Source of the DNA: Rhodohalobacter sp. SW132
GTDB lineage: Bacteria > Bacteroidota > Rhodothermia > Balneolales > Balneolaceae
NCBI RefSeq assembly: GCF_003390325.1
Contig: NZ_QUOK01000003.1
Span: 124,001 to 188,000 of the forward strand
DNA: 64,000 bases
Direction of reading: 5' to 3'
The notes under the pieces are model-generated. The model worked only from the letters and a program-made list of their open reading frames with translations, searched no databases and was not told the origin of the DNA. This document shows positions 35,983-55,867 of this stretch, in pieces (the first letter of the stretch is position 1; every line of letters begins with the position of its first letter). The position numbers and the translations under genes are program-made.

Positions 35983-36193
35983 TGTTCTGCTCCGCCGGAT
36001 GATGTCAAATTTTGAGAATTACTATTATTCTATATTTAAAATTGGTTCTAATGCCCCGAAAGTTCCGGAATGGTGGGAAAATGAAATTATAACATTGCAA
36101 TCTCCAATAAAAGATCTGTAGGTAAATGATAGATTTTAAGGCAACAACCATCAGGTGCTATCACCACTCCCAAGGGGATCCCTCCGGGGGAAG

Positions 36194-36258
36194 TCACGAT
36201 AACACGAAGTTTTCACGAATACTAATATATTGATATTTATATACTTCGTGGCACTTTG
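36194..36258. repeat. CACGAAG-type palindromic repeat
   Basis: CACGAAGT (36203-36210) and ACTTCGTG (36243-36250) form inverted arms around an AT-rich centre, with further CACGA copies outside. This is the same family as the elements at 39514-39606, 55499-55589 and 55652-55748. Confidence 0.65.
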
Positions 36259-36583: not shown

Positions 36584-39322
36584 TCAATGCGCATCCAGCC
36601 AGTTGTCAGCCAGGCCCATCTCCACAACCAGCGGTACATCGAGCGTATATGCATTTTGCATCAGCCCCTGCAGTTTTTCGGGCAGGGTATCCTGTTCGTC
36701 ATGTGCAATTTCGAAAATAAGTTCATCATGAACCTGCAGCAGCATTTTTGATGTAAAGGCATTTTCCTGCAGGTAGTCCTGAATCTTTATCATCGCAAGT
36801 TTGATGATATCCGCCGCCGTTCCCTGGATCGGCATGTTGATGGCCGTACGTTCGGCAAATCCCCTCACGTTCCAGTTTCGTGAATTGATATCGGGAATGT
36901 AGCGCCGACGGCCCATCAGCGTGGTCACATATCCATCCTCTTTCGCCTGCTTCACCGTTTCATCGATATAGTTTTGAATACCGGGAAAACGCTCAAAATA
37001 TTGATCGATCATCTCCTTTCCTTCGCTATTGCTGATTCCAAGCCGGCTCGCCAGTCCGTATGCGCTCACACCGTATGGAATTCCAAAGTTCACCTCTTTG
37101 GCTTTTCGCCGCTGATTCGGGTCCACATCATCAAGAGAATCGAGCCCGAAAATCTCTTTGGCAGTTCTTGCGTGAATATCTTCGCCGTTCTTAAACGCCT
37201 GCATCATATTTTCATCCTGCGAGATCGAGGCAATCACTCGGAGCTCCACCTGCGAATAGTCCGCCGCAAGCATTTTAAATCCGTCAGCGGGTACAAATGC
37301 TTTCCTGATTTCGCGTCCGCGTTCGGTTCGGATCGGAATATTCTGGAGATTCGGATTGGAGGATGAAAGGCGTCCGGTTGCCGCTACAGTCTGGTTGAGT
37401 TCAGTATGAATTCTCCCCGTTTCGGGATTCACCAGCTTCGGTAGGGAGTCCACATAGGTAGAGAGCAGCTTACTCAGGCTCCTGTAGTCCAGAACCATCG
37501 AAGGCACTTCGTACTCAGCCGCAAGTTTGGTGAGCACGCTCTCGTTGGTTGAATACTGACCCGTTTTCGTTTTTTTACCCGCCGGAAGGCCCAGTTTATC
37601 AAACAGAACCTCTCCTAACTGTTTGGGCGAATTGAGGTTAAACTCTTCACCGGTCTCTTCAAATATTTTTTTCTCGAGAGCCTCAAGATCCTTAGTGAGA
37701 TCCTCAGAAAACCCGTTCAGCATCTCCACATCGATACTCACACCGTGACGCTCCATCTCTCCCAGCACACGGATCAACGGAAATTCAATTTCTTCTGCGA
37801 TCTCCATCAGCTCATCTTCTTCCAGTTTTTCACTGAATTTCTTGAAAAGCTGAAGTGTAACATCGGCATCTTCACAGGCGTAGTCCGACACCTGATCGTA
37901 TGGAATCTGATCCATCGATTTTTGGGACTTTCCTTTCTTCCCGATCACTTTTTCAATGGAAACCGGCTCATAATGGAGGTGTGATTTTGCCAGAGCATCC
38001 ATACTCAGTTTTTGGGTTCCATCGATCAGGTAGGCTGCGACCATCGTATCAAAAACCGGGCCTTTCAGCTTCAAGCCGGCTCTTCGAAGCACCAGGTAAT
38101 CATATTTATAGTTGTGGGCAATTTTCAGATTTTCTTCGCTGCCCAGAAGAGGCTTCAACAGATCCAGCACAGATTCTGCATCGGGGGCTCCTTCAACATT
38201 CACCGGGATGTAGTAGGCAACTCCCTGTTTCGCACAGAGGGAAATTCCCACCAGGTTTGCGGTGATGGGATCTGTGCTATCGGTTTCCGTATCAAAACAG
38301 AGCTCTTTCGCGTTTTTCAGCTCCGCAACTGCCTTCAGAATTTCATCTTGGGTGACGGCCGTTTTGTAGTTGGTTTCTACATCATCCAGGTTTTTTGGAG
38401 CTTCTCCCCCATTTTCATCAGAAAAGAGCAGCCCCTGCCCTCCCGGTTCTTCGCCCAGGTATTTTTGCGTGAGCGTGCGAAATTCCATCCGCTTAAAAAA
38501 GAGTCCCAGGCTTTTCTTGTCGGGCCCGCTCCATCCCAGGGTTTCCCAGTCTTGTACGTCAGGCACGTCGGTTTTTATAGTCACCATCATTTTGGCGTGA
38601 AGCGCCTGCTCTTTGAACTCCGTGAGACCCTCCCGGGCGCGTTTCGCTTTCATTCCGGGCGCGGCTTCTATCGCTTTCTCGAGCGATCCGTATTTGTTTA
38701 CCAGCTTAGGTGCTCCTTTCTTCCCGATTCCGGGAACGCCGGGTATGTTATCTGATGTATCGCCGATCATCGCCAGCACATCAATCACTTTATCGGGATA
38801 CACTCCAAAGTATTTTTTCACTCCTTCCGGGTCGATGATATTAAAGCCCCCGTTTTTGTTATCGGGCTTCACCATCACCACATGATCGCGAACAAGCTGC
38901 ATGAAATCTTTATCCGGCGTAACGAGGTATGCTTCCACATCATCTTCGTGGGCGTCGTAGGCAATCGTACCGATCACATCATCCGCCTCATAGCCATCTT
39001 TTTCGATATTCTTAATTCCAAAATTTTCAATCATCTCTTTGATGAGCGGAATTCCAACCTTCAGTTCTTCGGGTTGCGGTGGGCGGTTCGCTTTATACTC
39101 TTCATCTTTTTCATGGCGGAATGTCGGTGCGTGCGTGTCCCAGGCTACAGCAATGTGGGTCGGTTTCTCCTCTTCCAATAGTTTCACAAGCGTGTTTGCA
39201 AACCCGAGAATCGGGCCGGTAGCAATCCCTTCTGAGTTCTTCAGCCGGCTTTTGATGAATGCAAAATGGGCACGGTACGCAAGTGCCATGCCGTCGAGGA
39301 GATAAAGTTTTTTCTTAGCCAT
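36584..39322 (-). CDS. polA: DNA polymerase I
   Basis: A 912-residue enzyme with three domains: 5'-3' flap exonuclease (1 to about 290, LYLLDGMALAYRAHFAF, DDVIGTIA and IGDTSDNIPGVPGIGKKGA), 3'-5' proofreading exonuclease (about 325-510, with catalytic LCFDTETDSTDP and a later YACEDADVTLQL, so probably active) and the family A polymerase (about 540-912: AADYSQVELRVIA, RRKAKEVNFGIPYG and the final LLQVHDELIFE). It fills gaps in excision repair and removes Okazaki primers. The gene is monocistronic with long repeat-bearing spacers on both sides. Confidence 0.97.
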   Translation of the reverse strand: MAKKKLYLLDGMALAYRAHFAFIKSRLKNSEGIATGPILGFANTLVKLLEEEKPTHIAVAWDTHAPTFRHEKDEEYKANRPPQPEELKVGIPLIKEMIENFGIKNIEKDGYEADDVIGTIAYDAHEDDVEAYLVTPDKDFMQLVRDHVVMVKPDNKNGGFNIIDPEGVKKYFGVYPDKVIDVLAMIGDTSDNIPGVPGIGKKGAPKLVNKYGSLEKAIEAAPGMKAKRAREGLTEFKEQALHAKMMVTIKTDVPDVQDWETLGWSGPDKKSLGLFFKRMEFRTLTQKYLGEEPGGQGLLFSDENGGEAPKNLDDVETNYKTAVTQDEILKAVAELKNAKELCFDTETDSTDPITANLVGISLCAKQGVAYYIPVNVEGAPDAESVLDLLKPLLGSEENLKIAHNYKYDYLVLRRAGLKLKGPVFDTMVAAYLIDGTQKLSMDALAKSHLHYEPVSIEKVIGKKGKSQKSMDQIPYDQVSDYACEDADVTLQLFKKFSEKLEEDELMEIAEEIEFPLIRVLGEMERHGVSIDVEMLNGFSEDLTKDLEALEKKIFEETGEEFNLNSPKQLGEVLFDKLGLPAGKKTKTGQYSTNESVLTKLAAEYEVPSMVLDYRSLSKLLSTYVDSLPKLVNPETGRIHTELNQTVAATGRLSSSNPNLQNIPIRTERGREIRKAFVPADGFKMLAADYSQVELRVIASISQDENMMQAFKNGEDIHARTAKEIFGLDSLDDVDPNQRRKAKEVNFGIPYGVSAYGLASRLGISNSEGKEMIDQYFERFPGIQNYIDETVKQAKEDGYVTTLMGRRRYIPDINSRNWNVRGFAERTAINMPIQGTAADIIKLAMIKIQDYLQENAFTSKMLLQVHDELIFEIAHDEQDTLPEKLQGLMQNAYTLDVPLVVEMGLADNWLDAH

Positions 39323-39364
39323 TCCTTACATTTATAATCGTGATTCTGACGTTTTAGTCTTGAT

Positions 39365-39696
39365 AACCTGAGTTCGATTAATAATATATTTCATTTATTT
39401 GGTATCCAGTCTCCCCTAAAAAGGGAAGATTTTCCCAAAGGGATCCCTTCAGGGCCCTTTTGAAAGGATGTGAGAAAATAACGTATCAATACTTATTGAG
39501 AATTATAAAATTCACCACGAAGCCACGAGGGCTCGAAGATTCACGAAGTGGATTTGTTTGATTCTATTAAACTTCGTGTATCTTCGTGACTTTGTGCCTT
39601 AGTGGTAAAAATAAATGGTTCATATATTTGATTGTGAATTTTCTCACAGCCTCTACAAAGGGGGACTTTTAATGTCATTATTTAAGAACTCAGGTT
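39365..39696. repeat. Nested inverted-repeat element upstream of polA
   Basis: The outer arms AACCTGAGTTC (39365-39375) and GAACTCAGGTT (39686-39696) enclose inner arms TGTGAGAAAAT (39469-39479) and ATTTTCTCACA (39638-39648), which in turn enclose a CACGAAG-type palindrome. The left half also contains CCC/GGG-rich stretches (GGGAAGATTTTCCC, AAGGGATCCCTT). The whole 332-bp stretch has no gene and looks like one MITE-like element or repeats inserted into one another. It occupies most of the 39323-39870 spacer. Confidence 0.6.
39514..39606. repeat. CACGAAG-type palindromic repeat
   Basis: The left arm ACCACGAAGCCACGAGG... runs to TCACGAAGT and the right arm ACTTCGTGTATCTTCGTG runs to the closing TAGTGGT, around an AT-rich centre. 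It is the innermost layer of the nested element at 39365-39696 and matches the copies at 55.5-55.7 kb. Confidence 0.7.
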
Positions 39697-39870
39697 GATA
39701 TTAAAGATACAACTCCATGCCAAGCCTGAAAAATCTGATCCCGCCTTTTTCTGTCTGCAATACAATGGACTGTAGGGTCGGAATCCTGTATTTTATTTTG
39801 GACTGCTAAATTTATCAAACCGAATAGGCTGCTGCACGGAGCATCATTTAACTTTAAATTTGTCTGAAGC

Positions 39871-40707
39871 TTGTCATTTGTAACCTCCATTTTAGTGCCG
39901 ACCGATTTTTCCCGAAAGTCGGAAAATGCCATCCGGTATGCGTGTGAAATTGCCAGTAATACGGGAGCGGAAGTCCATTTTCTGAATATCATCGAAGAGC
40001 CGTACGATTTTCCGTCACGTGTGGATGAAATTTTGAAGGAAAAAAAGGAGCAGAACGAGAAGCGGCTGACGTCGATGATTGAAGAACTGCATTCGGTTGA
40101 TGAATTTCGAATTGTGCAGATGAAAGGGCTGGTTCGCGTTGGTAAGGTGATCTCCACCACGCGGTCGGTTGCCCGCGAATATGATCACAATCTTGTAGTA
40201 ATCGGGCTTGGAGGTGATGCGGATCTCAAAAAAGTTCTATACGGTAGCATCACCAATAATCTGCTCATGACGAGCTCCATACCAGTTCTGGCCATAGCGA
40301 AGCGAATCGATTACCGGCAGCCGCGCAGGCTCCTTTTTGCAACCGGCCTTCGGAAAAAAGATATCGCCCACATCAAAAAGATGCGGGAGTTTAGTATTGA
40401 TATCGGTGTTTCACTGGAGGTTGTGCATATTTCGGAACCTGACACCAAAACGAATCCTGGTAAAGTAGAGTCATTCAACCAGAAACTGCAGAAGATCACC
40501 AAAAACCCGGAAGCTTCGCTGACGATTCACAATGCACCGTCATTCATGGAGGGAATCACCGAACTGATCGGGGATGATAAACATACACTTTTAGTGATGA
40601 CCCGCTACCGCAAAAAATTCCTGGAATGGCTGCTCTCCAACAGCACCGTCCGTACAGTCGCTCAGATGGCCTCCGTTCCGCTGCTGATGCTTCCGGCTGA
40701 TGAGTGA
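39871..40707 (+). CDS. Tandem universal stress protein
   Basis: Two Usp domains in one 278-residue cytoplasmic chain. The TTG at 39871 directly follows an in-frame TGA (39865-39867), so it is the first possible start and gives the usual ILVPTDFSRKSENA beginning. Domain 1 (about 5-140) ends VVIGLGG...GSITNNLLMTSSIPVLAI, close to the ATP-binding GxxGS pattern; domain 2 (about 150-276) lacks a clear nucleotide motif. Usp proteins aid survival during starvation and energy stress. It is divergent from polA with repeats between, and is followed by a stray RAYT-family half site. Confidence 0.85.
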   Translation: MSFVTSILVPTDFSRKSENAIRYACEIASNTGAEVHFLNIIEEPYDFPSRVDEILKEKKEQNEKRLTSMIEELHSVDEFRIVQMKGLVRVGKVISTTRSVAREYDHNLVVIGLGGDADLKKVLYGSITNNLLMTSSIPVLAIAKRIDYRQPRRLLFATGLRKKDIAHIKKMREFSIDIGVSLEVVHISEPDTKTNPGKVESFNQKLQKITKNPEASLTIHNAPSFMEGITELIGDDKHTLLVMTRYRKKFLEWLLSNSTVRTVAQMASVPLLMLPADE

Positions 40708-55466: not shown

Positions 55467-55498
55467 TTAAGCCGGGATTTATATCTCGAGTATTTTTA

Positions 55499-55589
55499 CC
55501 ACGAAGGACCCGAAGACTCTAAGGTTCACGAAGTTTTTTTAATTCTTCCCTTCGTGTTTCTTCGGGACTTCGCGCCTTCGCGGTTCCCA
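55499..55589. repeat. CACGAAG-type palindromic repeat
   Basis: The unit opens ACCACGAAGGACCCGAAGAC, continues to TTCACGAAGT, and closes CCTTCGTGTTTC through CGCCTTCGCGGT. It is 33 bp beyond the sugar dehydrogenase stop and 63 bp before a second copy. Confidence 0.75.
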
Positions 55590-55651
55590 AACGAAGTTCA
55601 GTTGAGGCTTGCTAATAACCAATTTGGCTTTAAATAAATATCCAAAGGTTT

Positions 55652-55748
55652 ACCACGAGGGCACGAGGACTCTAAGGTTCACGAAGTTTTAAATATTGAA
55701 AATTCCTCCAACCATATTTCTTCGCGGCCCTGCGCCTTCGCGGTTCCC
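55652..55748. repeat. CACGAAG-type palindromic repeat
   Basis: A second, nearly identical copy (ACCACGAGGGCACGAGGACT to CTTCGCGGTTCCC). Both copies share CTCTAAGGTTCACGAAGTTT. Together the two fill most of the 401-bp gap between the dehydrogenase and EamA genes, in which no gene is visible. Confidence 0.75.
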
Positions 55749-55867
55749 ATCTTACAGTCGAATGTTTACTGTTTACTTCAACGATCAACCACCCTACCTT
55801 CAAGTCCGATTTGAATAAACTTCAGCCATTAAAACCCTAACCTGCTTAACGCCACGGACACCATTCT

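Follow-up and report, generated by a model that had tools for sequence, protein, structure and literature searches.

Concentric palindromes upstream of polA in Rhodohalobacter sp. SW132 as probable nested MITEs, one of them from a family that inserts at hairpin tips

Here we report that the concentric palindromes occupying 332 bp between polA and a Usp-family gene of Rhodohalobacter sp. SW132 (39365-39696, in G000:C3) are very probably nested MITEs: an element A that entered an AT-rich site first, an element B that came later into the tip of A's second hairpin, and a CACGAAG palindrome, C, that B carried as cargo. Copies of B in this and related genomes support the conclusion that B, as a family, inserts at hairpin tips. 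Positions are those of the window, by which we mean the whole 64,000-nt stretch analysed, taken from a draft assembly of 5.08 Mb in 45 contigs.

The two neighbouring genes are arranged head to head with the palindromes between them (Table 1), and the closest named relative of this polA is that of Rhodohalobacter halophilus (78% in the best segment), followed by other Balneolaceae. A preliminary description of this DNA had noted three concentric palindromic layers upstream of polA, and all three are present. The outer arms, AACCTGAGTTC (39365-39375) and GAACTCAGGTT (39686-39696), are shorter than the 12-nt limit of our inverted-repeat search and were read directly from the sequence; the inner arms (39455-39479 and 39638-39662, containing TGTGAGAAAAT and ATTTTCTCACA) are 84% complementary over 25 nt; and the arms of the CACGAAG palindrome (39511-39549 and 39571-39609) match at 79% over 39 nt with 21 nt between them. 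A further small palindrome, D, is present on the left side, between A and B.

Table 1. Features of the layered palindrome and its neighbours, in window coordinates
Feature	Position	Strand	Basis
polA, DNA polymerase I (neighbour)	36584..39322	minus	NF004397, TIGR00593
Left 5-bp target duplication of A, TGATA	39361..39365		exact repeat of 39696-39700
MITE A, left part and first hairpin (TCTCCCCTAAAAAGGGAAGA here)	39366..39432	plus	96% to L009, an uninterrupted A copy, over its positions 1-68
Palindrome D, GGGATCCC core, where A's middle is missing	39433..39454		genome pattern search
Left arm adjoining B (CCCTTTTGA); final 4 nt, TTGA, at the position of the left 4-bp duplication	39455..39463	plus	flank comparison
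MITE B, 190 bp, CACGAAG type, with ends of an IS1182-family IS	39464..39653	minus	96% to L029; ends common to IS1182-coding elements
Palindrome C (CACGAAG), cargo of B	39511..39609		inverted-repeat search; stand-alone copies elsewhere
MITE A, right part; opens with TACA, the B duplication in decayed form, and with AAGGGGGACTTTT, which is the second hairpin's right arm	39654..39695	plus	match to A 121-172; junction at A 125
Right 5-bp target duplication of A, TGATA	39696..39700		exact repeat of 39361-39365
Usp-family gene (neighbour)	39871..40707	plus	PF00582

The layers are different elements, each of which occurs without the others: A alone, B in other surroundings and C alone. When the genome was searched with the 332 bp, 62 matches were returned, nearly all of them to the ends (A) or the middle (B, C), and end-pattern controls gave 0; because the layers are thus dispersed families, their concentric arrangement is beyond chance.

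Element A proper lies between exact TGATA duplications, and its terminal inverted repeats (ACCTGAGTTCGATT) together with a 5-bp AT-rich target duplication are those of a MITE. Its end pattern has 104 matches in the genome at no more than one mismatch, as against 0 for the reversed pattern. The 5-bp duplication is exact in 16 and retains four of five bases in 8 of 29 chosen copies, 11 of which come from relatives and 18 from this genome (the latter taken from 37 end pairs, the rest having poor ends or doubling a pair). Empty copies are represented by the uninterrupted L009 (172 bp) and by eleven end-to-end matches without B, some with other small inserts, and folding of an empty copy as DNA predicts two strong hairpins with 4-nt loops at A 54-57 and 125-128. 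The insertion sites of A show no hairpin preference (17% hairpin-centred versus 12% in shuffles). The copy in the window has lost its middle, corresponding to about positions 69-120 of the empty copy, and four others (L011, L014, L019, L022) carry a block CTCATTTTTTGAACACGCAGCG..AGCGTAGTGA, with variants, at the foot of the first hairpin. Among the matches listed in relatives, no transposase of an autonomous partner of A was reached, the contigs stopping just inside A-ended elements. A different family of ~180 bp lies between A-type ends in G063 (L226-L232), and contigs of G072 (L220, L222) stop ~125 bp inside such elements; the A-ended elements of these two genomes suggest a multi-copy autonomous element.

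Element B has the ends GAGGCTGTGAGAAAAT-N7-CAA. Its end pattern matches the genome 75 times at no more than two mismatches and 0 times when reversed. Pairing these ends gave 42 copies in this genome, 162-349 bp long, without a transposase gene and with several kinds of interior, the CACGAAG type among them; the copy sets leave out end pairs with more than 4 mismatches or more than 420 bp apart (such as L100, at 608 bp), as well as an overlapping pair in L150. The copies are flanked by a 4-bp direct repeat with 71% identity in register as compared with 14-43% out of register. It is exact in 14 and retains three of four bases in 15 of the 42 own copies; in a larger set of 65 copies that adds those of related genomes, 23 are exact, 20 keep three of four and 22 keep two or fewer, and the commonest words fit TNNA. 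These repeats are true direct duplications, since the exact ones include the non-palindromic words TAGA, GTTA, AATA, TCTA and TCAA. The window copy has a poor duplication, TTGA/TACA, identical at two of four positions.

The 42 own copies of B sit in A (15), in a second host family, E (10), or in neither (17). Of the 15 copies with A-like flanks, 14 have at least one flank that could be followed to no more than 9 bp from the junction, and every flank so resolved ends at A 53-56 or 124-129, that is, at the loops of the two hairpins. Five flank ends could not be placed, other sequence intervening: the right end at L028 (for one B), L031, and the left ends of L046, L048 (the window copy) and L096. 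In the window it is D that intervenes, so that the left flank of B was not tied to A by BLAST and the right flank alone is resolved. Of the 40 matches to host family E, 23 run through the insertion point without a break. One A copy, L028 (G000:C1:1043200-1044600), bears a B in each hairpin (419-609 and 696-905). In L024, a single B bridges A's first loop to its second and A's middle is lost; recombination between paired B elements such as those of L028 could yield bridged forms of this kind.

Over 48 non-redundant targets drawn from the 65 copies, the best hairpin centre falls within 1 bp of the insertion in 33, compared with 22% of random positions. Because some of these loci came from a query that included the hairpin arms, we repeated the test on 36 B copies in loci fetched solely by the 16-bp end pattern, of which 12 have an exact duplication and 14 keep three of four bases. 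Removal of redundancy left 28 targets. A stem centred on the insertion, with at least 6 of 7 pairs formed, is present in 21 of them, whereas random positions give 11.5% and base shuffles 11.6%; the best hairpin centre lies within 1 bp of the insertion in 20. Nor is this simply a property of these intergenic regions, since A, tested alike, gave the result described above. The preliminary description had proposed that repeats were inserted into the loops of older repeats, each layer perhaps choosing hairpin tips. These observations support both ideas for B, through its resolved right flank in A's hairpin loop and through the habit of its family; a choice of hairpin tips is not supported for A, which occupies AT-rich 5-bp sites.

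What the inserting enzyme responds to is a separate question. We tentatively propose, with rather less than even confidence, that in Balneolaceae the substrates of IS1182-type transposases are extruded hairpins, the enzymes cutting on both sides of the 4-nt loop, duplicating the loop and keeping the stem, so that each insertion would lengthen the palindrome and leave a target. It is also quite possible, if somewhat short of an even chance, that B recognises a sequence (roughly CCCCT-TNNA-AGGGG) and not a hairpin, palindromic hosts being hit for carrying it; the nesting would stand in either case. An arm-shuffling comparison of structure and sequence was marginal: cross-paired arms reached the observed mean in 81 of 2000 shuffles with the best shift and 227 of 2000 with no shift for the 48 targets, and in 71 and 224 of 2000, respectively, for all 65 copies. 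Arms from different B copies pair nearly as well as true pairs because they share a C-rich/G-rich consensus, which favours sequence recognition, as does the fact that two hosts, A and E, account for 25 of the 42 own insertions. Against it, fuller IS1182 elements in relatives can lie between palindromic arms of quite different sequence. Eleven such elements with placeable ends were used (L192, L202, L204 and L205, without clear ends, were dropped), and four have significant palindromic flanks at p below 0.05 (L154, with CACGAACC, L155, L156 and L170); in the other seven, four of which have GGAGTCTGTCGG ends, the palindromic flanks do not reach 0.05, and the IS1182 element L166 shows an exact ATTA duplication without a hairpin. 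IS1272 is likewise reported to lack a sequence consensus (PMC5678879, PMC4923244).

The assignment of B to the IS1182 family comes from its ends and targets. The B end is found at no more than one mismatch in 30 of 92 genomes of the bacterial family, SW132 being one of the 92. In G046, two copies lead from the B end into an IS1182-family transposase reading frame (PF13751); against NF033551 these frames score 244.8 and 239.5 bits (E 1.8e-72 and 7.4e-71), below the 270-bit cut-off, and in G021 a 92%-identical fragment adjoins the same B end. Contig ends truncate the IS1182 frames that adjoin the B end. The pattern GAGGCTGTGAGAAAAT-N7-CAA is common to the ends of B and to those beside IS1182 frames at L136, L137 and L153, with one end available per IS, and none of the genomes examined showed a complete IS with B ends and both of its junctions. 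Since this end lies directly beside a transposase gene of the IS1182 family in two related genomes, B is best read as a putative MITE derived from an IS of that family. Contigs also end some 30-140 bp inside B-ended elements at L133-L135 and L141-L143 (G003, G046, G090), which is what short-read assembly would be expected to give on collapsing the identical copies of a multi-copy IS.

The SW132 assembly, a 45-contig draft that could lack a copy, yielded no intact B-type transposase. The one trace of IS1182 there is a 780-bp remnant with different ends, GGAGTCTGTCGG (L210, G000:C7 at about 225.5 kb), so that B is at present an orphan MITE in this genome, unless the assembly has missed its partner; we infer that an IS1182 transposase acting in trans moved B in this lineage. 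The remnant belongs with another IS1182 subgroup that has GGAGTCTGTCGG ends (L160, L200, L201, L210) and, by eye, CTAG or CTA at its junctions.

Most B copies are flanked by CCCCTT..AAGGGG arms, and these might be viewed as B's own extended inverted repeat, with no hairpin targeting at all. Flanks of the TTGA..TCAA type (e.g., L101, L180) do resemble inverted rather than direct repeats, and inverted identity at four of four positions occurs in 11 of 65 copies, partly because TCGA is self-complementary. Closed hairpins without B, however, are present in A and in the uninterrupted matches to E, and these empty hosts rule out the arms as part of B; the direct 4-bp register and the exact non-palindromic words also speak against this account, which we regard as highly improbable.

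Palindrome C lies inside B in the window and occurs without B elsewhere in the genome. Two neighbouring stand-alone copies without B ends (55495-55590 and 55649-55749) follow just after a gene end within the window. In the CACGAAG-type B copies compared by eye, C sits at the same place in each, and it may therefore have been captured once; no empty B of this type was seen among them. We interpret C as probable cargo of B. In G002, B-ended elements of 123-130 bp (L150 516-638, L151 1953-2082) carry a palindrome GCCACTGAAACACAGAA..TTCTGTGTTTCAGTGGC in the place of CACGAAG, suggesting that the palindromic cargo of B-ended elements is exchangeable.

The D pattern has 25 strand matches in the genome and 0 when reversed; being near-palindromic, many sites are counted twice. 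D, ~25 bp around the GGGATCCC core, is found inside the arms of C in L032 and L021 and beside a C-like piece at window positions 36165-36250, and in the copies viewed by eye (L016, L021, L032) it is not at hairpin tips. In the A copies L016 and L020, D-like repeats occupy other positions, and it is possible for this reason that the middle of the window's A was lost between two D copies.

Based on the nesting, we suggest the following history. A, with its two strong hairpins, would have entered an AT-rich site between polA and the Usp-family gene, generating the 5-bp duplication; that A came first is read from the intact TGATA repeats. B, with the ends of an IS1182-family IS, would later have entered the tip of A's second hairpin, with C arriving as its cargo. 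In an insertion of the B type the cuts would fall around the 4-nt loop and the loop would be duplicated, a cutting chemistry that we infer; the arms of the stem would thus come to flank the new element, leaving a longer palindrome with a new centre. Dating the layers by divergence, as had been proposed, did not settle the order (the left arm of A is 96% identical to L009 over 68 bp, and B 96% to L029 over 190 bp), and the order given here follows from the nesting.

The position between divergent genes could also point to a structure with a regulatory or terminator role, retained for polA or for its Usp-family neighbour. Terminator-like hairpins do exceed the numbers in shuffles: an empty A copy has 2, which overlap, where shuffles give 0.1, and the window has 3 where they give 0.4. 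The DNA upstream of polA, however, has no match to the 332 bp in any of 24 relatives, some with little upstream DNA (~130 bp in L055); these were drawn from 37 loci, 13 being left out as more distant or without upstream DNA. Rhodohalobacter halophilus (L049), the only tested relative with the same polA gene order, has a gap of ~100 bp without a match. For this lack of conservation a regulatory structure is not favoured, and we give it a very low probability. Least probable of the readings considered is that the 332 bp move as one composite unit, the outcome that would have undone the earlier idea of separate insertions: the layers are concentric and small palindromes occur in all of them, but one of the 62 genome matches spans the whole, which rejects a single unit for this genome, and there is no full-length match among those listed in 37 relatives.

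Nested MITEs of this kind may be set beside other short dispersed palindromic mobile DNA of bacterial genomes, such as cyanobacterial small dispersed repeats and REPINs. REPINs are tied to RAYT (Y1, HUH) transposases; for B, the putative partner is an IS1182 enzyme of the DDE class, and the target duplication is 4 bp long. Other insertion sequences target REP palindromes, namely ISRm22, ISRm19, IS1397, ISKpn1 and IS621, which we take to belong to IS3, IS110 and other families. ISRm22 is reported at the palindrome axis (PMC1525189). These REP-targeting IS resemble B in inserting into repeated palindromes; their targets are REP-specific, whereas B, a MITE of IS1182 type, is found in palindromic repeats of several families.

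The closest parallel is with IS1272 and TnSha1, IS1182-family elements of staphylococci. According to PMC5678879 and PMC4923244, these target hairpins, often terminators, and partly or wholly delete or replace the stem-loop, with no target duplication; the latter source cites Siguier 2015 for palindrome targeting by some IS1182 members. B shares with them the transposase family of the element bearing its end, the hairpin target, and multiple insertions per hairpin in both orientations. It differs in being a MITE and in leaving the stem in place with a 4-bp duplication at the loop, L024 being a possible exception, and thus shows the hairpin target of IS1272-type replacement and not the loss of the stem-loop without duplication. 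In this respect B matches the loop-only duplication drawn as alternative pathway c in Figure 13 of PMC5678879. Among the matches listed in the open-licence PMC literature, we found no description of IS1182-derived MITEs in hairpin tips, or of such repeats in Balneolaceae.

Dozens of natural insertions, together with uninterrupted copies of their targets, place IS1182-family ends at hairpin tips with the loop duplicated. They make loop-only duplication testable, a pathway that is drawn, and not reported as observed, in the part of PMC5678879 at hand, and they offer a hairpin-directed transposition system to assay. Because dozens of relatives of the inner element share the hairpin-tip habit, palindromes can accumulate one inside another in the manner of Russian dolls, which accounts for the rise of concentric palindromes in intergenic DNA. 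If IS1182-type transposases of Balneolaceae do act on extruded hairpins, the process would be a self-reinforcing ratchet building nested palindromes, and MITEs would be parked by preference in terminator-like hairpins and within other MITEs, where little harm would result.
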